DNA from: Patagioenas fasciata
Taxonomy: Eukaryota > Chordata > Aves > Columbiformes > Columbidae
Length of the DNA stretch: 64,000 bases
Assembly: GCF_037038585.1 (NCBI RefSeq)
Contig: NC_092520.1
Location: 7,828,501-7,892,500, forward strand
Direction of reading: 5' to 3'
The notes beneath the pieces were generated by a model. That model was not told where the DNA came from. It searched no databases and saw only the letters and a program-made list of their open reading frames with translations. Position 1 is the stretch's first letter; each line of letters begins with the position of its first letter. The translations under genes were made by a program, and so were the position numbers. Positions 19,201 through 58,083 of the stretch are shown here, piece by piece.

Positions 19201-22200
19201 AAGCAAAGAACAGCTGGGTGAGCAACGTTAACAGAGAAGTCTTTGTGCCACCAGAACTACATGGCATTAAGGAACATCAAGAAGAACAACTAAAGTCTAG
19301 TTCAAGGTAAGCTGTCTGTGTAATCACAGTTACTATTGGGACTGGTGAAACTTGTGAGCTCGAAGTTCCATCCAAAATTTTGTGCTTTCCTCTTATTTCA
19401 AAGATCATCAAATGTTTCCTCAGAATCGCCCAAGGAATCCATGCACGTGAAAAGTTGACAATTCATAGTCATGCATTGTTCATTGTTCTGCATTTGAATG
19501 CAGAACATCTTCAGCTCACCTCTACAAGGAGAAAGTTGGCAATGGTGTCTGGAATGGTCCCACACATGTTCTCATGTCACAACTTAGTCTGGCTCCCAGC
19601 AGTGAGACCAGGATTTCCTGGTTGGAATGGCTGGCCACAATCAGTCCTCCATAGTTGGTAACAGGGAGACAATAACCTCTGCATCTCTTCACGCAGTCAC
19701 TCAATGAGACCAGATCGTTGATTCAACCTGAATTTTAAACTTGGATCATATGAAGAATCAGAGCCTGATAAATTTCTCTTTAGAATTTTCCAGATCTTTG
19801 GGTCCATAGTTTAAGACCTCTGAGACATTTTAAGGAGACAAAATGTATTTCAGGTGGAAAGAACTGCAGTATCTTTGGATAATTGCAGAAAATAAGTCAG
19901 ATTCTATGGAGAAAAATACATGTCTTTCTGGCAAGCAGAAGCTTCCATTCAGAGTAAGGCAGGACAGTCAGCTTGGGTCTGCCTGAATGGCTGCAGTTGT
20001 TGCAGGAAAGCTGGATGATAAGTAGTTTCTGGACTCTTTTTGTATTAAATCACTCCATCTCAAGTCTGTAAACATCCCAAATATCTCCATTTTGCTTTGA
20101 AAAATACTGAGTTGAGAGAAAGAGACGTGTTTTCTCTTTAAAATACCTATGTGTAGTAGTTCATTGGCTATGTGAGGAGCTATCAAAAGCCTGTATTTGA
20201 GAAGGAAAGTGGTGATCTCTTAGCGAAGGTGACAGCAGGTGGACATGTCTTCAAACAGCCAGACTCCTCAACACCCCTGAGGAAACAAGAACCGGGGTGT
20301 AACACAGACAGCTATTGTTTGTGCTTTCAGTGGACAGAGTGAGCTGAGAGCCGGAGTTACTACTTGACTGTTTTACTTCTGGTTGTGCCATTGATCAACT
20401 CTCTAACCTTTCACTTTCTTGCCTGTCTTCTAAGTCCTCTGTACGTCCTCTGTTTTTCCTTTGCAGCAAGGCTTGTCTCCTACTGTGCATTTGTACGATA
20501 TGTAGTAGCAGCTGAATCTTTCTCTTTCATGGTCTGCAAACTGGGCACACAAGTTCATGATGAACGGCACTGAAGGTTGGTGTAAGTCTTAACAACTCTG
20601 GCTTGCATTACTGGTCTTTTTTATCTTTTATGTATAGTTATCAGTGAACTCAGAGGGGTGTTTGTCTTACCCACATCTGAAATTCTGCTGAAAAAGTCAA
20701 ACTACTTCGTTATAGACTTCCCAAAAAATGAAGTTGTACAATAAGGATGTTAAAGGTCACTTTTCACAAGAAAGAGCTTAGCTCCCCCTGCCCAATTTGG
20801 CTGATAATGCTGACAGAGTTTTTACTGAATGTAGTGTTTTCTTACAGGTGGCTTTTACCTTCAGGGGATTGTTATGGAGTTACTTCTTTATAAACAGCAC
20901 AAGACATGCTGCTGATTAGTATATCTTTTAGAATATTTTGCCTGTCCTCTTTCACATTAGGAAAAGAAGATGATAATTTAAAAGAAGTACAGCCTTATAA
21001 TGTTATTCTAACCATTACACAAATTGTGTGTGGTTGATTGATACATTTCATAAACTGTCAGGGCAACCTCTTTAAAAATATAGAACATAACAAGGGTTAA
21101 GAACATATAGGCAGTTGTTCAGAATATGGCCAGCGTGGCTGTGGTCTTTAACTTTAGGTGATTTATGACCGTGGCCAGGAAGGCCAATGGCATCCTGGGG
21201 TGTATTAGAAGGGGGGTGGTCAGTAGGTCAGAGAGGTTCTCCTGCCCCTCTACTCTGCCCTGGTGAGACCACATCTGGAATATTGTGTCCAGTTCTGGGC
21301 CCCTCAGTTCCAGACAGACAGGGAACTGCTGGAGAGAGTCCAGCGCAGGGCAACAAAGATGATGAAGGGAGTGGAGCATCTCCCGTGTCAGGAAAGGCTG
21401 AGGGAGCTGGGGCTCTGGAGCTTGGAGAAGAGAAGACTGAGGGGTGACCTCATTAATGTTTATAAATATATAAAGGGTGAGTGTCATGAGGTGGAGCCAG
21501 GCTCTTCTTGGTGACAACCAATAATAGGACAAGGGGTAATAGGTACAAACTGGAACACAAAAGGTTCCACTTAAATTTGAGAAGAAACTTCTTGTCAGTG
21601 AGGGTAACAAAGCCTGGCCCAGGCTGCCCAGGGGGGTTGTGGAGTCTCCTCTGCAGACTTTCAAACCCGCCTGGACACCTTCCTGTGTAACCTCAGCTGG
21701 GTGTTCCTGCTCCGGCAGGGGGATTGGACTGGATGAGCTTTTGAGGTCCCTTCCAATCCCTGACATTCTGTGATTCTGTGACATCCATGCGAAGTTTAGT
21801 GATTATTGTCCAGGACCCTATCCTACCATTTACTCCGAATTGTGCCAGATATTAATCAGCCTGTATGCCTTGTTTATGTGTGCTTATCCTCGCACCAATA
21901 GTGCACGGTCTTCCCCCTAAAGCAAGCGCACAGAGTCCAGGATTGCTGAGACAGTTGGAAGTGGGTTTTGGGAAGTGATCTATAATATGTGGGCTGGACA
22001 TTTGCATTTACTTTGCATAAATATTTGATTAGAAATCTCATATTATTGGCTTCTAAAATGTGAAAATCTGAAGCAAGCAAATGTGGCAGGACTGGGGGCA
22101 AATCATTGCTTATGATTTCAGTGTAGAATTATTTCACTGTGAGAGACTAGTTCTATACAGCATTGCATATGGGAATTACAGGGAGGTGCCATGTGTTTCT

Positions 22201-25200: not shown

Positions 25201-28200
25201 GATCATTGACCAAAGAAATATTCAGTTCTGGAGTCTCCTTGTACATCTATATGGGAAAAAAACACAGGGGTTGCTTTCCTTCCTAGCCTGAGGTCATATT
25301 TCCTACCTGGAGAATGTTCGTTTTCCCTGCCTTGTTCTGTTTCTCCCATCCCGATAATCCTAAGCATGTAAGTTGGTCAATGCCAGCTTTTTCTATATAA
25401 AGTTGAAATACTGAATGTGGTTGTTATATGAAGATCATATTTAAATCCACATCTAACTTCAGTCTTCAAAAAGCAAATTATTTTCATACCTAAGATATTT
25501 AGATGAACTTAAATGATAAAAATCTGTTTTGAGAAAAAACAGAAAAACAACAACTCTTGCATCATGCTGTAAATAGATGAAATATTTCTTGATGTAATGT
25601 AGGAGCTGTCTCTTCTAGCTGTTTTAATTTCTCCTTACTTGGGCTATACTTAGTCAGGATCACAAGTAATAACTTACTTATGCTATCAAACCACAGATTT
25701 TATAGATCTTAAATGAAAGAATAGCTAATAAGACGTATCTCTGTGGGGATGTGTTGTCATCTGTGGCGTGTCACATCTTTACTATAATGGTGATGGGACT
25801 CCTCTGATTTTTCTCACTTGGACACTTTGCAAAACTCTATTTTTAGCAGATTTTTGGCACTTTCCTCCACTTTGGTTTCAGTCCTAAAAGGATAAATGTA
25901 GGACAAGGATGGAGACAAAAACACTGATATTGTTTGGAGAGTGGGTACATTTATATAAAGCTTGCTCAAATATCTAAAAGATATTAAAAAAATATGGTTT
26001 CTGTTGTGCCAAGTAGAAGTTGTATTGAATTCTTCAACAGGCAAAGAAATTTTCCCCTATTAGACAGCAGTGTAGAGGAAAAGGACCTGAGGGTCCTGGT
26101 GGACAGCAGGATGAGCATGAGCCAGCACTGTGCCCTTGTGGCCAGGAAGGCCAATGGTGCCTGGGGTGGATTAGAAGGGGGGTGGTCAGTAGGTCGAGAG
26201 GGGTTTTCCTTCCCCTCTACTCTGCCCTGGTGAGACCACACCTGGAATATTGTGTCCAGTTCTGGGTCCCTCAGTTCCAGAAGGGCAGGGAACTGCTGGA
26301 GAGAGTCCAGTGCAGGGCAACAAAGATGATGAAGGGAGTGGAGCATCTCCTGTGTGAGGAAAGGCTGAGGGAGCTGAGGCTCTTGAGCTTGGAGGAGACT
26401 GAGGGGTGACCTCATTAATGTTTGTAAATATATAAAGGTTGAGTGTCATGAGGATGGAGCCAGGCTCTTCTTGGTGACAACCAATGATAGGACAAGGGAT
26501 AACAGGTTCAAACTGGAACACAGGAGGTTCCACTTAAATTTGAGAAGAAACTTCTTCTCAGTGAGTGTGCCAGAACACTGGCCCAGGCTGCCCAGGGGGG
26601 TTGTGGAGTCTCCTTCTCTGCAGACATTCAAACCCGCCTGGACACCTTCCTGTGGAACCTCAGCTGGGTGTTCCTGCTCCAGCAGTGGAACTGGACTGGA
26701 TGAGCTTTTGAGGTCCCTTCCAATCCCTAACATTCTGTGCTTCTGTGAGGCATATCCCATTGCTATGGAAAGAAGCTGATGAGAGCAGGCTGAATAGAAA
26801 ACTTTAGGTGCCAAGAGGTTACGTTTGAGTATGAATAAACACATCTTTGGCTTGCATTTTCAAAAAGGATTAAAGTAATGCCCTGTTTGCTGAAGTTGTT
26901 ACATGCTTTTTCTTTGCAGTTCTAAGCCAACAATCTCTGTGTTAGACAAACCCGGGGAAAGAGCGATGAAGGCAGCAGCCTCACCACTAAAGGTATGACT
27001 GCTTTTGAATGTAGCAGGATTTATCCTTTACGTTTTGTGCTTTGTGCTTCAGTGATAAAGATAATTAAAGATTCGATAAAGAAAGATAAGAAGCTGGGAA
27101 AAAATAGTATTTTTTTGTTTTGGAAAGAGATAATGGAAACCACTAAGGTTTGAGTGCTATAGTGCTGTTATGGCTATAACCAGTGGCTGTCTCTGCTTGA
27201 CATTGTTTCCACTGTCTTCAACCACTAAAAAAAATGGTCTTGCTGTGTTCCAATATCTCTAAAGTCATAGAAGTAGAGATAAAACTATTTAACTTGCAAT
27301 AACTTGGGATTTTTAAGTGTCTTTAAGTGGTGGCTTATCTGTCCTGTTGGTGACATCAAAAAGAAAAGGACGAGGCTTATCACTTGCACTTCTGATAGTT
27401 CCCTTGTTCTTATTACTTAGTTTTTTGTCTTGTATCCAATTTAAGGATTCTTTGCTGACTGAGTAGTGAGGCAGAGGAAATCGCTACACATTATCTTATT
27501 TTGTCAAGAATGTACTGATAGGAAAATTCAGCTGCAATTATTATGTTCATTCCTTTTTTAGCAAAGGAGAAATCCATTTAACTTCACTGCTTCAGGGGAT
27601 AACTTGAACAGTGGGGAAGCAGAAAACAGACCAGCCATTCTACCTCAGCTATCAAATAAGGGTAAATATACTTATTTAGCATAACCGTGAATTTCTTGGT
27701 GACTTATATTGAAATTATTTTTACTTTCATTGCTTCTTTTTGTAAGATATCGAAGCCTGTTTTATCTTAACTACTTCGAGTTATCAACTAGTTTGTTTCA
27801 AACCCCATATAAAACACGTGAATATAGTCAGGAAATGGCTGTTTATGTGACTAAATGGGTTTTGCTTCCTTTCTTTTACTCACAATTCTAGTCAGCACTC
27901 CTGAGAGGGCTGTTTGTCCTGAACGGCTGTTAAGAGAACAGAGAAATTTCCTTGATTTTGGCATAGATGTCTTTATGACCTTCCAGTCATTGCTGCAGTT
28001 GGCTCAACAGAAGAAGCTTAACTCTCTTCGATCTTGATTTGTTTCTTTTGTTCACCCAGTTCTGTTTATTTTCAAATCCTCCCTTTCCTGCAGTATTCTC
28101 TGCAGGCAAGTAGCTGAGTGGTGATATATCACAGTGCAGGCATTTGAAGTTGTAATTTACAGGCTCATATGTGCAGATTACTCTCCTGTCTCTGTTATGA

Positions 28201-31200
28201 AGCCTGCTAACAGGAAAAAGGAAGACTTGCACATTAGGAATAAAAAAACCAAACCAAAATGTTTTCCTAGTGGGACAACATTTCTGCATTTTACTTTGTA
28301 AAATATGAATGTGGAACTAGCAACTTGCAGAAAAGGAAAGAGGCTGTTCATGTTCTCAACCTGAAGAGGTGTTTGCATATTCAAAAGCTCCCTTCCCTGC
28401 AAAGTTTGTACTTTGCAGGAATAACACTGATCAAAAATTTGGTGTGCTTCCTATCTTTGAAATCATCAAATAGTTAATATTTGTAGAATAAGAAATAACT
28501 GCAGGATTTTCATCTGTTAAAATTTCCAGTTACATACAAGTGAGATAAATACCTATGTTGAATTTCCTCCTGTGTTTTACTGCAGGTGTTTTTAGTAAAC
28601 CAATATAATCACTGCGTTCTAGATCTGCACTGTCATGCCCTTCTGTTTATACAGATGAATGTCATGGAAACTCATGATTTGTTCTCTGTATGTGTCTTAC
28701 AGAAATTTTGTCACCCTCAAAAGAGAGCGAACCTAAACCAAACTCAGTAAATGATGAAACAGAGAAACACAAGAAGCCTTCTGCAGAGCCTGCTGCTGAA
28801 TCACAGAAGGGACTACTTAAGCGTCCTGTCCCAAAAGCTAGAAAATTAATTCACAAAGCAACAGATCCTGTGTCACAAAGAGAAGATCATGTTCCAAAAC
28901 CAGCCGAACGGACCGAGAGAATTAATGGTGTTGGAACACCGCCCAGGGGCATTCTGAAGCGCAGTTCAAGTTCAAGTTCCACTGACTCGGAAGTTCGTGT
29001 TAGCCAGATGTTAGATGTTCAGAAGAAGAATGGTCTTCCTACTGCAACTATATTTGAAGGAGAGGCTGAGAAGAACTCTCTTACAGAAGAAGCAGAAGAC
29101 TCCACACAAATTTCACTGGAAAAACTAAAACAAGTGAGGTTCTCGTCTAGCACAGGCAAAGGAGAACCTCTGCAAAGCCCACAGCCACATCGCGGCAGAG
29201 AAAAAGGAGAGTTTGATTTGTTAGAATCTGACGAAATAAAGAGTAGTAGAAATGGAGCTATTAGAACAGATTCATTGGGGAATAAGCAAATTTCTGCTGT
29301 AAAGCCTTTGGGAACCCATTCATCAGCTTTACAAGTGAAACCGATAGATGGCTTACCAGGTGATACATCAGTGTCCAGACCTCGTGATGCTAACAGGACA
29401 GTCTCCCTGGCAGATGAAACCTTGCAGACGGAGACAGTTACTCCTAAGAAACTTGCAACTCCACGAAAGGCCTCCAGCAATATCCTGCCAAATAGCAATA
29501 ATGAACTGAGTGTTGATGAGACACGTGAAAATAAAGCCAACAAGTTATTGAGCCAGGAATCAAAGTCACACAAAAACTTTACTGGTAAGAGGCTAATAGG
29601 AGTGAAGAACAGAATGCAATATCAGGTAGCATGTCTTCATTAATGTTCAAATCACTTGTATCTAAGAATTAACAGCAAGGAAAAAGAGATAATAGGAATG
29701 TGCCACATACTGCAGAATTAAATTCAAAATCACTTTTTTGTACTTTAATGCTCAAATGTAGTCAATATTTTTTAGATGATCTTTTGTTGGTATTCTCAAG
29801 AATTAACAATCAGATCAGAGCCTGGATAGGCACCTTTCTTGTGGATGGTGAAGGTGAAGTGGTGCCATTTGGATAAAAATTCCTGTCAGGAGGCCTGGTA
29901 GATCTTTCTGCATGGGAACAGAAGAATGTGTACAGCTGTTGGCTGTCATTGGTAGTAACACAATTGTGACTTGGGGATTTGCTCTGAGACTATACACAAC
30001 TATGCTGGTTGTCCTTCCCACGTGTCCCCTTTCAATTTAGCCATTTCCTTTAGAATGAGAATAACCAATCTTATCTATTGGCACCCTAAAAGTAATGAAG
30101 TAATATGTGTAATCTTCCAGGAGGATATCTCAGTGCAGGAATTTATTTTTCAGTTCATTGCCTGCAGTGTGGTTCTTTTCAAAAACACGAGGGCAGAGCA
30201 ATCTTTTCCATGCTAACAGTTAAAAAACCTCTGTTTTGTTTTGTTTTGTTTTTTGAGATAGGTCGAACATTTGTAGAGTTGTGTGTCTGATTCCTAACTC
30301 TGATAAGTTCGTTTATGTTGTAGATCAACATCAGCTTTCTGCTAAGACAGAAACACATGAGGTGTCAAATACCAATTCTACAAGTCTTCAACAAGGTAAG
30401 CCTGATCTTGTTGAGGAGCAAGATGCTAAAACCACTTTCAACCCTGACAAACATGCTGATGAACTCATGAAAGTGCCCGATGAATCTGTATCAAAAGTTT
30501 TAGATTGGTTTCAAAGAAGTTCTGGTACTGAAGATAGGAACCATGTACCAGCTAGATCCCAAGGCAGGGAACACATGGAAGAAGTGGGCTTCTCAACCAG
30601 AACAGGAGCTCTTCCTACAGAACATGGAGGGCCTGGCCTGGATGGAAAAACAGAAGTTAAGGAAGAGTTACTGTTTGGAAAGATTAAACAACAGAACAGC
30701 ATTTCATCTACATCATTTATTTCAGAAGATACGCAACTGATAAAACAGAGGATGAAACCTAAGAAAGAGGAAGAGAATGAGGAGAAACATGACAAATCAC
30801 TAACTGAATTTGACTGTATTAGAGTTGAAGAAAAAGAAAGTGGTCAAGAAATCAAGCAACAAAATAAAAAATCAAATCTTGTGGAATATCAGGGACACAA
30901 GCTACTAGCTCAGAAACACAAATCAGAGAAGGCAGTGCAAGAAAAAGGAAGACTAAGGGAGATCAGAGCATTTTGGGAAGGGGATAAAACTATCCCCGGT
31001 CATAGAGAGAAAGAAGTCAGTGTCAATACAAATGCACCAGGTAATGGTGTATTGAAGGGTCTCAGAGAAAGTGAGAAAATAAACCCAGCTGCCATATACC
31101 TACCTAATGGATCAGATGATCAAAGCAAGAATATGTTAAGAAGTGCTGAACTAAGTTGTGCAAGCCAGGCTTTAAGAAATGAACATCAAAACTCTTTTGA

Positions 31201-34200
31201 GTTTGGAGCAGGCCATGCAGTTGAAAGGCCAGAAAGAACACTTCCATCTGATGAGGAAGTTCATGAATATGCAGAATTGCCAAAAGCCAGTAACTTGCAG
31301 CCAAGTGTTGGTGCCACTTCAGCTTCTCCCAAAATCAAAGACAAAGATGAAAAGGAAACACCTAAAGGAAGACTTACCGCTTGTTCCCAGCAGAAGCCCA
31401 GCTTCCAGGTTTTGTCTTTAAAAGAAAAAATGAATGAGAAGTCCAAGAATCAAATTTCAGATCCTTCACAGTTCCAGAGTCTGAGAAACTTCTGGGATAC
31501 CAGAGTTAAATTACAGAGTAGCATTGATAGGGGAGGTGTTTCTTTGCCAAATAATACTAGTTCAAGAACCTATGAAAGAAAATCAAAGGAAGATAAAAAA
31601 AGCAGAGATAATGTGAACAAGCAAGAGTTAATTGAACAACAAACCCCAACATCAGAGACAGAAAAAAACCAGAAACTAGATTCTGGGGTATGTGAACTGC
31701 CTCTAGGATCTCCTACCCTGAAAGGCCTCGATGTGAAACGCATAAAGAATCCAGACTCTGTCCTGCAGGACAGAAAACCAGTTATCTCAAACCCCCAGGA
31801 AAAGATGGGTCCTCCAGAGCAAGAAGTTAAAGAATGTGCAGAAAAAGGTATTGTTTTATCAAAAGAACAACATGTTTCCTTGCAGTTACTCCAGTCACCT
31901 GGTGATAAAGATGCTTTAAAGGAGACAGCAGTAGATGATTGGGTATGTTTAGCTACAAAAAAAGTGGAGAACAAAGCTGCTCCATTAGATATCAGTCTTC
32001 CTAAAGAGGAAGTTGCTGAAACTGTGGGTAAGGTGGTTCTACCTAAAGCTGAGCTTGATGTATTTAAATTGGGCCTAAAGAAGTTAAAAGAGGAAGCCTT
32101 TGAGATGCCATCTAGCTTGAGCCTACAAGAAAACATTTTGAAAGGGACAGTTTCTCACTCAAATCCATGCAACATCTCTGAAAAAACAGGAGAACAGAGC
32201 CATGACGCTTCTGCTGTTGATCAAGAAGAAGAAATAAGCAAAAGCACAGGGAAAGTGAATGTGCCATCAAAAGATGAGCATGAAAACAGAAAAAGCCTCA
32301 GGGAACTGATTAGGGAATTTGAACCTTTCCGTCTACGACATCGTATAGTAGACAAGGATGATACACTTGAGGGTTCTCAGAGGCCTCAAAATGGTTTGCA
32401 GAACCTGCTCAGAGAGAACTTTGCATCTCAACCTTCTGAATATAGAAGGGTGGGAATGAAAACATCCAATGACAAAAATAGCATATCACAAAGTAATTGT
32501 GTAGAATCAACACACCAAGAAGATATCGGTCATCCTGAAGAGGTCAGAGAGACCACAGAAAGGTCTGTTGCCTCACCCAAGTTCAGTGGCTTGAATTCTG
32601 CTTTAGAGAAGCTGCTCAAGGAGACCTCTGAAATGCCACCTCCTAAACCAAAGCGTGCTTTTAACACAGTACAGACAGCTCCTGAGATGGAAATTAAAGG
32701 CATGACCTATGAGAATGATGGAGAGTTTCTGCAGGAAATTGGTGAGATCATAGAAAAGTCTGTTGCCCCATCCAGGGTCAGTGGCTTGAGTTCTGCTTTG
32801 GAGAAACTGCTGAAGGAGGCCTCTGAAACACCACCTCCAAAACCAAAACGTGCCTTTAACACAGTACAGAGAACTGCTGAGATGGAAATTAAAAGCATGA
32901 CCTATGAGCACGGTGGAGACTTGCCACAGGAAATTGATGAGACCATAGAAAAATCTGTTGCCCCATCCAAGGTCAGTGGCTTGAGTTCTGCTTTGGAGAA
33001 GCTGCTGAAGGAGGTCTCTGAAGTGCCACCTCGTAAGCCAAAACAGGCTGACAGCACAGTACAGAGAGCTGCTGAGATGGAAATTAAAGGTATGACCTAT
33101 GGGCATGATGAAGAGTTGCTGCAGGAAATCACAGAGACCATAGAAAAGTCTGTTGCCCCATCCAAGGTCAGTGGCTTGAGTTCTGCTTTGGAGAAGCTGC
33201 TGAAGGAGGTCTCTGAAACATCACCACCTAAACCAAAACATGCTATTAACACGGTACAGAGAGCTGCTGAGATGGAAATTAAAAGCATGACCTATGAACA
33301 CGATGGAGACTTGCCCCAGGTAGTTGGTGAGACCATAGAAAAGTCTGTTGCCCCATCCAAGGTCAGTGGCTTGAGTTCTGCTTTAGAGAAGCTGCTGAAG
33401 GAGGCCTCTGAAACATCACCACCTAAACCAAAACATGCTATTAACACAATACAGAGAGCTGCTGAGATGGAAATTAAAAGCATGACCTATGAGCACGATG
33501 GAGACTCACCACAGGAAATCAGAGAGACCATAGGAAGATCTGCAGTGTCCAAGGCTGAATGTGGAGTGTTTGATGTTAATTTGCAGAAGCTCCTGAAAGA
33601 GGTCTCTGAAACAACAGCTTCTATACTGAAAAATATGGATAAGAAAATGGAAGGTAAAATACAGACTAGTCAAAGTGTGCATGCTGCACACCAACAAGAG
33701 AGAGATCATCCTCAAGAAATACAAGAAACAGTAGAAAAAACTTCTGTTTCAAATATTGCAAAATTCGGTGAATTCAGGTGCTCTTTAGAAAATCTTACTC
33801 GAGAAGCATCTGAAATTTCATCTCCAATACCCAAAGAGTCACATAAACAAGAAAGGTTTGGGGATCTTAAAGTGTTTCCATCACAAAAAGAGACTCTACT
33901 TATGGCAATGTCACAGCCATATAACGCTTTCAGTAGCTACCATACGGAGATGAAGACAACTATCAAAGGGGGAGTTCCAGAACAAAATATCGAAACTTCA
34001 ATACATGATCCTGCAGTAACTGAAACTGAAGATTCTGATTTTCCTAAAAGAAACGGGGCTAATAATAAAGTAGAAAAGAGAAACACAGCTCCAGTCAATC
34101 TCTCTCTCTTGGAAGGAGATAACAATATGATTGTGATCAAGCCATTCAAGATAAATGAAAAAGGAAGAAGAGATGAAAGCCCATCCTTGGATGACTCTGA

Positions 34201-37200
34201 AAATAATTCAGAATTTAAAGCACTGTTGAAATTCAGAAGAGCGAGCACACCACTTGCAGATGGGAACAACTCCCCCCAGCCAGAAGCAGCTCAACTCTCC
34301 CTAATGTTTCAGTGTGAGGATAATGATGAAGAGGAAGGGGACGGCTCCAATTTGGGATCCAGGTTTTCAGATGAAAACTCTGATTCCCTCTCTGGAACAC
34401 GAAGTTCAATCTGTGAGCTGTTTGATTTCTAAAATTCATGGGGCTGGGTTGTTAAATATGGCTGCAATTTTTTGGTAGCCAACTTAAAATATGACAACCA
34501 AAAGTCTGTGTGGTACTTATTTTTTAATTGAATCCTTTGGATATTAGTTTGTGAAGGATGGCAAGAACCAATTAAGTCCTTTAATTGGAAAGTGTTTGAC
34601 AAACACGTGCTACACTTGGGTAAGCCTTTTTGGTAAGGGGAATTTAGCAGCATGAATGAATCGCATCAGTCTTTGTGGTTTAATCTTTTCTTCTTCCCCT
34701 GTGATATTACCTTCAAATTAATAACATTGTAACACCCCAAACTTGGTATTTATTTTAAATATCCTGGATTAAAAGAGGAAAAAAAATGGCTGACTGATTT
34801 CATTTTTTAGTTTGACCAGTTAGGCTTCAAAGTTAAATTCTTACAAGTGGAATGGCTGATTATAAAGACAATAACAGTATTCTGTGCTATTTAATTTAGC
34901 ATTGCTGCCCGTTGCACTAGGAAGTGGCCATATAAATGAAGTGGCCTGGTTACCAGGATTCTCATTATTTGCTTGAATGGCAGCTGTGGTCAATGTACCG
35001 TGTATGACTGTCACTGAAGAGCTTAAGGCAGAGGAGATAATGTAACCTTTTTAATTTGCTCCTGAGAGACTGAGAATGTTTTCTTCACCAGGAGATTCTG
35101 AAAAATGTCTGGAGTTTCCAGCACCTGTTAACTTAAGTTTTGAGCCTATTTTGAAAGTGAGATTCCAACAGAGGTCAGTGAAAACTCAAAACAAATGAGG
35201 AAAAATGAAACCTAATTTGTTTTTACCCCTAATGTTGCTGCCTATAAGGCCTGGTTGCTCTGCTGATGGTGATGAAAGTCTAAAGTGGTTGTTGCTGAAA
35301 TGTTGAAAGAAAGTGAATTTCACTGGGGAGAAAATACAGTGGACAAATTTACGCAGAAAGAAAAACCAAAGCTATTACCTGTTTCATGCTGGTTTATAAC
35401 AAGATGGTTACAAAATGGTCTGAATTTAACCCATGTTTTTCTTGGACAATTAAGACAATTAATACTTGCCCCAAGTCGCCTTATTAGTCAGTACAGATGG
35501 CAATACCTACACAGAGGAAATCAACCAACCTGCCTCTCTCTACTGATGGCTGAGAGAGTTAAAAAGAGTGAATGGATACTTAAAATTAGACGTTTATTTT
35601 GTATTTTTGTTGAATGTTCACTGTCATTGTTAAAGGTCAAAATAGATTCTCGTGAGAAATCAGTATTTGGTTTCTTAGTGACTTAAAATGGCATGTCTAT
35701 GTGTGCAGTGTTCATGTGTTTTGTCTTGTAACAGGTTCAGAAGAAGAATTAAACCCTGTTTTGATGGCTTTGAAAAGGAGTGCAGATAGGAAAATGCCTT
35801 CCAAAAGTCTAGAGGACATTCCATCAGCCACCTCAAGTGAGCACAAAGCTTGTGTGTGTCTCCCATGACCCCCAGTTTGGCCTAACACGCTGTTCTTCCA
35901 TACAGCTTTGCCAAATAGCTTTTTTGTCTTTGCTTCTTTATAAGCAGTATGGAGTTTGTACTGTCAAACTGAATTCTTTCCTCATACGGGTTAGTTTTCA
36001 GTTCTTTGTGTTGATTTTCAAACAACATGGGTCTGTGAAGCAGACATCTTCCAAAAATGCACTGTGGTGATCAGTGATGAACTGTTTCTTGGATAGTTTT
36101 TAATAGTGAAAGTACTGGCAACTACCCAAACCAGTAGTGAGCAACAACTGACAGTGGAAGTACAAAAAATTCCTATTAGTTTAATAGTGTTTCACCTGTG
36201 TACTCTAGCAGTTAATAGACCAAACCAACTGTAAGAGAATACAGTGAGACACCATTATGCTTGGAATTCATTTTTGACTTCCCTCTGTAGCCTCCTAGGA
36301 TGATGATTATTATTATTATTTTTAATGATTATTCCTGTCTCCACCCAGTCCCTCACTGTTTTCCTGCTTATCTCATGTCTAATGGGGAAGACATAAACTG
36401 ACCTTGTGTTTGTAGCAGTGTGGAGGTGTAGATTTTGAAATATGTTGGCTGTAGTTGGCATATTACTCTTCTAATACAACTGATGCTATTGCTTGCTTCA
36501 GACTAGTTCTAGGTTTTAGGCTTGCACTAACACCGCAACAGCGCAGCGATAGAAACTGTGTCAGTACCAGACTGCTGCTGGGATGTAAGCTTCAAGTAGT
36601 GTGTGAAGTACAAAGCAGCTCTTGAATTTAACCATTTCCGTGGCTCTGCTGGTTTGTTTGGGGTTTTTTGTCCTCGTTACTCTTAATTCTGTGATTACCC
36701 CGCCATCCGTTTTATTGTACCAAACAGCTACATTTCTAATTGTGTGTTACTTTTTTCCTGCACAGATAAAGGAAAAGTAAATAATCCAAAGGAAGAATTA
36801 GCTCTTAGTGCTGAAGATGGTAAATATCTTTTGTGTCTGCATGGAAGCTCATTGTTTTTTTCAATAGTCTCTGTCTGCTCACGAAGGAATATTGAAACCA
36901 AGAATTATATTGTGCTTTTAGACTTGATTAATTTCAGCATCACTGAAATGCTTTTGCAGAATTTTGTTGTGTTGTTTTATTCTTAAGGAATGTATTTATG
37001 TTATGATGTTATGTCCTGCCATTTCTGTGCCACCTACCAGTGTGTTATTTTGGCTTTTGGTCCTTCAGCCTGTGAAACAGTTACTGAAATAACTGAGAGC
37101 TTTGAACATTAGCTCAGTTGAAAGAGTTGGCCTAAGGAGATAGTGAATTTATTTGTTCATCTGTTTCATTATAAGATGCAAGATGACTTTTGCTCATGCA

Positions 37201-56501: not shown

Positions 56502-56920
56502 AAAATCACACAATGTCCTGAGCTGGATCCCACAAGGATCATTAAGTCCAACTCCTGTCCCTACACAGGACAACCCCACATTTCACACCATGTGTCTCAG
56601 GGTGTTGTCTTGAACACTGTCAGGCTTGGGGCCGTGACACCTCCCTGGGGAGCCTGTTCCAGTGCCCAGCACCCTCTAGGTGAAGAACCTTTTCATCATG
56701 TTCAGCCTAAACCTCCCCTGGCACATCTTCCTGCCATTCCCTCGGGTTCTGTCACTGGTCACCAGAGCGAAGAGCTCAGCCCTGCCCCTCCTCCTCCCCT
56801 TGTGAGGAAGCTGTAGCCGCCATGAGCTCTCCCCTCAGTCTCTTCTTTGCCAGGCTGAACAAACCCAGTGACTTCAGCCACTCCTCAAACGGCTTCCTCT
56901 CCAAACCCTTCACCAACTTT
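56502..56920 (-). mobile_element. CR1 LINE fragment, minus strand, next to CREBZF promoter
   Basis: On the plus strand it contains ATCACACAATGTCCTGAGCT, then CTGGGGAGCCTGTTCCAGTG, then GAACCTTTTCATCATGTTCA, then GCCAGGCTGAACAAACCCAG and TCCTCAAACGGCTTCCTCTC. These are typical reverse-strand CR1 phrases. It ends about 40 bp before the CpG-rich region of CREBZF. Confidence 0.85.
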
Positions 56921-56949
56921 TAGCCCCCGTTACATCCCCGCACATCCCC

Positions 56950-58080
56950 CTTGCCCACCCCCACAATCTCCCCTCAGCCGCCGCCGCCGTTTTCCCGCGC
57001 GCGGGCGCAGTCGCGCGGCGCCCCCTCCCCTGCCGCTCCCCCCGCTCTGAGGGCGCCGCTTCCCGACAGGCACCGCGGCGGGAGCGCCGGGCCGCAGCCT
57101 CGCGCGGCTCTCCTCAGGCTCGGTCCGGTCCCGGCCCGCCCGGTGCCGCCGCCATGCGCCACAGCCTCACCCAGCTGCTGGCGGCCTCCTCCGGCGGAGC
57201 CAGCCCCTCGGGCGCCGTCTGGCCGCTGGCCGGCGCGGGGCAGGCCCCGAGAGGGCGGGATGGCTGCGGGGAAGGGGATCCGGGCCTCGCGCGGCCCAAA
57301 CAACAGCAGCCGCCGCGGCGGGAGGCGGGCGCCCTGGAGCCGCGGCGGCAGGAGAAGGAGCCGGAGACGCCCGGGGTCCCGCTGGAGGTGTGGGAGCAAG
57401 AGGACTGGTTCCCGGGGCTGGAGCTGGGAGACCTGCTGGAGGCGGCCCGGCCGGACTGGGACCTGGACGCGGAACTGAGCGGCTGTTTCTGTGGGGAACC
57501 GGAGCCGCTGCCCCCGCCGGGCCAGAGCCAGAGGCCGGCGGCGCCCGGGCGGCGGAGCGGCGGGACCGGCAGCCGGCTGAAAGCGGCGGCGGCGGCGCGG
57601 CTGAACCGGCTGAAGAAGAAGCAGTACGTGCTGGGGCTGGAGAGCCGCCTCCAGGGCCTGGCTGCCGAGAACCGCCAGCTCCGGGACCGCAACCGCGGCC
57701 TGAGCCGCCGCTTGCGAGAGCTGGAGCGGGAGAGCAGTTACCTGCGGGCCGTGCTGGCGAACCAGAGCGCCCTGGGCCAGCTCCTCAGCCGCCTGGCCGG
57801 GATCCGCGCCGGCGGGCTGCAGCTCAGCACCAGCCTCTTCAGGGACACGGGCGGCCCCCGCCTCCAGCGGCACCTCCAGCAGCACCTCCAGCCCGCCGGC
57901 GAGAGCAGCGACCACGACTACGCCTTGCCCAGCGCCCGGCCCGCCGGCCCGGAGGAGGCGGCGGAGCCGGAGGAAGAGTGGGTGTCCCCCGGCGGGATCT
58001 GCCTCCACGTGGACCGGGATCAGGTGTCGGTGGAGTTCTGCTCCATCTGTGCTCGGCGAGCGGCGGCCTCCTTCAAAATG
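56950..58080 (+). promoter_or_regulatory. CREBZF: CpG island covering CREBZF promoter and coding exon
   Basis: G+C and CpG density rise sharply from about 56960 (CCGCCGCCGTTTTCCCGCGC) and stay high to the end of the CREBZF coding exon, in contrast to the AT-rich surroundings. No TATA box is seen upstream of the start codon. This is typical of a broadly expressed gene with an unmethylated promoter. The transcription start is probably between 57000 and 57130. Confidence 0.8.
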
Positions 58081-58083
58081 TAG
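57154..58083 (+). CDS. CREBZF: CREBZF (Zhangfei/SMILE) bZIP transcription co-regulator
   Basis: Single-exon CDS of 309 residues; the human protein is about 354. The start sits in a strong Kozak context (GCCGCCGCCATGC) and gives [12 protein letters not shown], as in mammals. An acidic region (80-110) precedes a basic region (about 142-159, [19 protein letters not shown]). A perfect heptad zipper follows with Leu at 162, 169, 176, 183, 190 and 197. As in mammalian CREBZF, the asparagine normal for bZIP DNA contact is replaced by alanine, fitting a protein that acts through partners. DHDY at 253-256 is the HCF-1 binding motif (D/E-H-x-Y). LxxLL motifs at 5-9, 91-95 and 207-211 fit its known role with nuclear receptors. 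The C terminus [20 protein letters not shown] is conserved; the human tail after KI is absent. The glycine/serine-rich segment before the bZIP is shorter than in human. Confidence 0.96.

Follow-up and report, generated by a model that had tools for sequence, protein, structure and literature searches.

A tandem repeat with a period of 195 bp lies inside one very large coding exon of the pigeon Patagioenas fasciata, within the window analyzed here (64,000 nucleotides of contig NC_092520.1; positions below are those of the window). This raises the question of whether the repeat units arose by recent duplication or gene conversion, as the first-pass annotation had suspected, and of what many copies of one short helix could contribute to the protein that carries them. 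In this study, we characterized the array and its host gene, compared the repeat with related units of birds and other amniotes, and weighed several explanations for its evolution and function.

The array and its host exon

The product of the exon was 100% identical, over 98% of the exon, to P0001 (synaptotagmin-like protein 2 isoform X2 of Patagioenas fasciata), which agreed with the earlier assignment of this exon to SYTL2. The exons of P0001 mapped in order across positions 4189-48042, and the form that includes the giant exon has 2290 aa. The protein carries both PF02318 (N-terminal Slp homology domain) and PF00168 (C2), the pair of domains by which SYTL2 / Slp2-a was recognized. At its 3' end the exon is delimited by a GT donor at 34413, shortly ahead of the stop of the frame. 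Coordinates of the exon and the repeat units are shown in Table 1.

Table 1. Coordinates of the host exon and repeat units in the window
Feature	Position	Strand	Basis and remarks
SYTL2 giant exon	about 30324..34412	+	open frame 30257-34432; P0001 mapped on the window, ends from splice sites; belongs to the linker that joins the N-terminal Rab27-binding domain to the C2 domains
Internal GT splice donor	31848..31849	+	implied by predicted isoform X7 (P0097); annotation-based
Upstream ancestral-type repeat unit	32009..32161	+	34.2 bits, turtle-only profile
Array unit 1, 65 aa	32540..32734	+	TRF, translation, turtle-only profile; groups with Columba unit 1
Array unit 2, 65 aa	32735..32929	+	TRF, translation, turtle-only profile; 92% to Columba unit 2
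Array unit 3, 65 aa	32930..33124	+	TRF, translation, profile; groups with unit 3 of C. guinea and C. livia X1
Array unit 4, 65 aa	33125..33319	+	TRF, translation, profile; groups with unit 5 and last Columba unit
Array unit 5, 65 aa	33320..33514	+	TRF, translation, profile; groups with unit 4 and last Columba unit
Degenerate unit 6	33515..33682	+	49.1 bits, top score of the exon (turtle-only profile); core spacing 10, longer, ancestral-type
Degenerate unit 7	33716..33847	+	25.6 bits (turtle-only profile); ancestral core spacing 11

TRF analysis revealed an array at 32549-33533 with a period of 195, 5.1 copies, 86% matches and 0% indels, and all five array units were read in the same open frame. 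Thus, the previous description of five in-frame units, starting every 195 bp from 32540, was reproduced. Self-comparison across the array at a lag of 195 gave an identity of 0.868 versus a mean of 0.257 over lags 20-399, and pairwise identity among the five units was 83-93% for DNA and 68-91% for protein. When unit 2 was searched against the source genome (1.45 Gb), with only the best candidates scored, five places were found, all of them units 1-5.

A turtle-only profile gave 40.0-45.5 bits for units 1-5, and the best score in 1000 shuffles of the exon was 8.5 bits. The two degenerate units that had been noted after the array and the one before it were well above the shuffles with this profile; they should thus be considered real and part of an older family. 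Two further candidates in the exon, at 31823 (6.0 bits) and 32390 (1.8 bits), fell below the shuffle control. The start of unit 7 was closer to 33716 than to 33710.

The array lies in a region that is absent from some predicted products. The pigeon isoform X7 (P0097) is predicted to lack residues 989-1843 of P0001, which comprise the entire array, and array units were present in none of the 14 short bird isoform records examined (P0097 and 13 others).

Some other features of the window were also observed. An open frame of 403 aa (56872-58083, forward strand) showed a weak match to bZIP_1 (21.4 bits, under the cut-off of 27.6); CREBZF is the neighbor of SYTL2 in vertebrates. Two copies of a dispersed repeat (21171-21733 and 26138-26700) were 91% identical over 569 bases, the second ending at the edge of the compared stretch; their frames matched no Pfam family, and the repeat may be an interspersed element.

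A repeat family of amniotes and its shortened core in birds

The core of the unit, about 35 residues long (ExxETxEKxVAPSK...), was found to recur in turtles, squamates, alligator and mammals. An iterated profile, which took in bird sequence, identified 9-10 units per record in four turtles, 6-7 in three squamates, 6 in one alligator isoform and 2-6 in mammals (n=15), the mammal and alligator records being possibly incomplete isoforms. Because the core recurs in these groups, the pigeon repeat is, as judged from sequence comparison, part of an older amniote family within the SYTL2 exon and no recent pigeon invention.

Database searches gave little to compare it with. The best Pfam-A match of the exon was PspAA (19.2 bits, under the cut-off of 27), and among 21 units scanned the best E was 0.029, with none at a curated cut-off. 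The exon had no PDB match at E up to 1. With the unit profile, 4wsl_A (E 1.1e-5 for the whole chain) was rejected, since that value added up eight weak stretches (1.5-2.3 bits) that individually did not pass; the next matches were 8etq_A (0.017) and 4r3q_A (0.091). We found no account of the array in the titles, abstract openings and passages (including PMC3995336) that we covered on SYTL2 / Slp2-a, tandem repeats, AKAP and LD motifs.

Conservation was analyzed in 233 units, with frequencies weighted over seven groups. Seven core positions stood out: E1 (1.00), E4 (0.97), L24 (0.84), K26 (0.87), L27 (0.95), L28 (0.81) and E30 (0.94). In columns 38-63 the frequency never exceeded 0.48, the last column (64) being E at 0.78, although conservation of the core relative to the tail is somewhat inflated, since the units were detected by a core-driven profile. 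Tails of the pigeon type occurred in the pigeon array and in its relatives among birds; those of emu and ostrich differed, and those of turtles differed again. Thus, the conserved 14-residue tail of the first-pass annotation had no support beyond birds, and it is the core and helix that are conserved across amniotes.

These observations bear on the idea of a pure spacer, according to which selection acts only on the length of the tether and the helix is kept by homogenization, not by binding. Similarity of tails is confined to related arrays, and turnover occurs mainly in whole 65-aa steps (see below), both of which would suit a spacer. However, divergent turtle and mammal units retain the core as well, which recent homogenization cannot explain, and we regard this explanation as quite unlikely.

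The core itself differs in length between birds and other amniotes. Core spacing was measured from the K of APSK up to the leading L of LxKLL. Of 427 avian array units, 421 had a spacing of 9 and six had 7 or 8, one each in the galliforms Pavo, Phasianus, Tympanuchus, Lagopus and Cyrtonyx and a sixth that resembled the Lagopus unit; the 428th avian unit, the last one of emu, had a spacing of 11 and was an ancestral-type flanking unit. Turtle matches had a spacing of 11 or 10 in all 138 cases, and other non-avian matches had 11, 10, 12 or 8 (one unscored), so that a spacing of 9 occurred in 0/138 and 0/260, respectively (counts redundant across isoforms). Bird units with a spacing of at least 10 were flanking units in the subset checked. 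Relative to the ancestral core, that of avian array units is therefore two residues shorter, with rare exceptions that are shorter still.

The distribution of spacing 9 points to a single founder on the bird stem. The simplest reading would be that a loss of two residues in one unit preceded the divergence of living birds and that this unit gave rise to the avian arrays, the core being shortened further within galliforms. The presence of a spacing of 8 in four non-avian matches suggests that core shortening can arise more than once.

Unit number and turnover among birds

Array units were found in 101 of the 108 bird records counted, which include several records per species. Five records had 1 unit, seven had 2, 21 had 3, 30 had 4, 23 had 5, eight had 6, two had 7 and four had 8; emu had a total of 17, that is, 16 array units and one ancestral-type unit. 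The previous suggestion that unit number varies among species was thus borne out (1-16 across bird records). The 108 records were taken from P0001-P0125, leaving out 17 further isoforms (P0078-P0082, P0104, P0108 and P0111-P0120). The searches behind the comparison covered the best 120 of 237 matches, the best 120 of 132, and all 113; candidates had at most 2432 aa in the first two, so larger arrays may be missing. Five SYTL2 records with this repeat (P0036, P0060, P0063, P0014 and P0128) bear precomputed PF11178 and PF19760 labels and the name 'fibrosin-1-like protein', which are probably spurious.

Unit number also differed between congeners: Ciconia (8 vs 5), Aptenodytes (3 vs 4), Grus (4 vs 3), Falco (4 vs 1), Passer (5 vs 3), Calidris (6 vs 4) and Anas (8 vs 6). 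Columba guinea and C. livia X1 both had 4 units, and differences were found in seven of the eight genera with two named species, gene-model and assembly errors included. The start-to-start distance was exactly 65 residues in 267 of 327 cases.

A nearest-neighbor test of the units gave 115.3/423 at first and was uninformative because the set held related genera; it was replaced by a test between orders with duplicate records removed. In the latter, 191 of 372 units had their best match in their own species rather than in another order. The proportion was very high in ostrich (8/8), storks (18/18), ducks and geese (27/27) and emu (16/17), and low in pigeons (4/14) and passerines (21.5/134). In a set of twelve passerines with five units, identity was higher for units at the same position in different species (0.78-0.84) than for units at different positions in one species (0.61-0.75). 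A tree of 72 units, built on 65 columns only and with many unresolved forks, grouped units 2 (98/92), 4 (100/99) and 5 (100/98) of three passerines by position, unit 1 less firmly (91/97) and unit 3 not at all. Ostrich units and penguin units clustered by species, and the units of two storks clustered jointly, with the last units of each stork outside the rest. Homogenization of the arrays appears from these patterns to be uneven among bird lineages.

Two palaeognath arrays had a peculiar composition. Ostrich SYTL2 (P0086, residues 838-1292) contains seven identical 65-aa units in a row, which may point to very recent amplification or to an effect of the assembly. The emu array (P0014, residues 535-1573) mixes two tail types, RTAEMPVESTTYQRDAESP and SHFQLASQQSYQRDAESP, which suggests amplification of multi-unit blocks.

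For the pigeon units, recent duplication had been proposed on the basis of their DNA similarity. By identity, Patagioenas units 1, 2, 3 and 4/5 paired with Columba guinea units 1, 2, 3 and 4, respectively. The tree grouped unit 1 of Patagioenas and Columba (100/99) and, with moderate support, their units 3 (85/88); Patagioenas units 4 and 5 clustered with the Columba unit that ends the array (99/96), and unit 2 was left unplaced among the forks. Patagioenas unit 2 was 92% identical to the second unit of both C. guinea and C. livia X1 and at most 86% identical to its own array mates. dS between pigeon units was 0.15-0.33 (0.18 for 4 vs 5), single values being noisy with about 44 synonymous sites per comparison. 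A recent pigeon-specific expansion was therefore rejected for units 1-3, and only the 4/5 pair could be young.

Pooled pN/pS of the pigeon units was 0.54, which indicates mild constraint only. It was 0.45 for helix codons, 0.42 for the tail and 0.66 for core positions 1-35; thus, the tail was no freer than the helix, which weakens the claim of selection on the helix alone. This raises the alternative of a neutral coding minisatellite, in which any in-frame length of the linker is tolerated, the helix is a leftover and unit number drifts with no effect on function. The similar values for helix and tail, the differing unit numbers in the genera mentioned above (gene-model errors included), the lack of array units in all short isoform records and the mostly disordered state of the region in structural models would all fit such drift. 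On the other hand, the seven core positions have frequencies of at least 0.81 across amniote groups, passerine positions have remained distinct in 12 five-unit species, and most start-to-start distances are exactly 65 residues. We consider neutrality a credible but rather unlikely explanation.

Variation within species was suggested by comparison of assemblies. The gene model of P. f. monilis has 4 units, the last of which combines a unit 4-like start with a unit 5-like end, as expected from a single unequal crossover or from collapse during assembly. Among C. livia models, unit number was 4 or 5, and three distinct unit orders and hybrid units occurred. The earlier proposal that unit number varies between individuals is thus only suggestive, since the differences (5 vs 4 in P. 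fasciata, 4 vs 5 in C. livia) come from differing assemblies. The same disagreement could mean that the unit number itself was made by mis-assembly. However, the five units differ mutually by 7-17% of bases, units 1 and 3 group with their Columba counterparts, and nearly all bird records counted have array units, which makes an artifact hardly credible.

Helices, docking motifs and the proposed tether

An AlphaFold model of two units showed helices at 15-31 and 81-96, with 10-residue blocks at pLDDT 62-78, and a loose remainder (mean pLDDT 60.4, pTM 0.23; only 24 of 100 residues at pLDDT 70-90). It agreed with the one helix per unit predicted in the first-pass annotation. A model of the 495-residue stretch with all seven units, based on 39 sequences, was unusable (mean pLDDT 42.6), probably due to repeat misalignment. 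In units 1-5, the best 14-residue window near the helix was in percentile 94.8-99.9 of the exon for hydrophobic moment. Each unit is thus modeled as one helix in a loose chain.

We also asked whether the helix resembles a known docking motif, such as AKAP (PKA-anchoring) or paxillin-type LD motifs. Counts were made on profile columns (233 units) and repeated on raw units with the same result. LxxLL was retained in only 315/428 avian units, against 41/47 turtle and 34/43 mammal units. The hydrophobic pattern of AKAP RII anchoring fitted the pigeon core and, in total, 261/428 avian array units, but it was found in 0/47 turtle, 0/33 palaeognath, 0/18 squamate, 0/6 alligator and 4/43 mammal units. 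A relaxed LD pattern, L[DE].LL..[LIVM], matched 9/233 units over all groups and 8/428 avian array units. Both readings were rejected as a general function, because the patterns are rare or absent outside neognath birds or across groups. A repeated motif of either kind is thus very improbable, although an AKAP role limited to neognath birds is conceivable. A class II SH3 site, PxxPx[KR], was likewise not general (avian array 203/428, turtle 1/47, mammal 1/43).

Taken together, the array is real, in frame and functionally plausible, and represents a familiar type of coding repeat, placed in a disordered linker and turning over differently among lineages. The explanation that we favor, with a confidence somewhat better than even, is an in-frame coding minisatellite in a mostly disordered linker, which would derive from an older amniote family, have been amplified on the bird stem and serve as a tether with helical docking. 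One shortened unit would have been amplified on the bird stem, and its descendants would later have gained, lost and exchanged units in frame, at a pace that seems fast in ostrich, emu, storks, penguins and ducks and slow in passerines and, largely, in pigeons. Each unit would form one amphipathic helix on a flexible spacer of roughly 50 residues. Situated in the linker, with the N-terminal domain on one side and the C2 domains on the other, the array would lengthen the Rab27-to-phospholipid tether, and it may offer repeated, weak docking sites to a putative helix-binding partner. Predicted isoforms without the array would be devoid of this function. A disordered tether seems the most likely role, and the repeated helix may add docking motifs to it; the multivalent binding proposed earlier is likewise hypothetical. 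A bolder proposal is that the amniote SYTL2 motif family sets the valency of the Rab27 vesicle tether and that the bird array number (1-16), able to evolve and perhaps polymorphic, tunes secretion or melanosome anchoring; we consider this speculative and fairly unlikely.

Our results point to an amniote-wide repeat family that is new, is matched by no Pfam model and lies within a splicing-variable linker, together with a founder event, the loss of two residues, assignable to the stem of birds. Orthologous bird proteins with 1-16 helices could serve as a natural series for tether length or valency.

The closest known system is the gene product of the window itself: SYTL2 / Slp2-a (exophilin 4) is a Rab27 effector, and both its N-terminal and C2 domains are present here. 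According to passages of previous reports, Slp2-a binds Rab27 through the N-terminal domain and phospholipid through the C2 domains, with a splicing-variable linker between them (PMC2329822, PMC12188314), and the function of the splicing-variable part was given as unknown in 2008 (PMC2329822). Full-length mouse Slp2-a has 950 aa in the same source (PMC2329822), far below the 2290 aa of the pigeon giant-exon form; thus, the known cell biology may not involve the array region. The paxillin LD-motif region is similar in having several short amphipathic helices with leucine-rich faces, whereas its consensus, LDxLLxxL as given in a passage of PMC7703752, is approached by few SYTL2 units even in relaxed form. 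Drosophila Bitesize, the single fly Slp, is comparable as a synaptotagmin-like protein with an isoform-specific interaction: certain Bitesize isoforms interact with Moesin, as stated in part of PMC10153138. Finally, PRDM9 zinc fingers and spider silk share with the SYTL2 array long in-frame units that are homogenized in some lineages and vary in number among species; unlike them, the SYTL2 array lies in a disordered linker, apparently derives from one shortened unit and is positionally stable in passerines.
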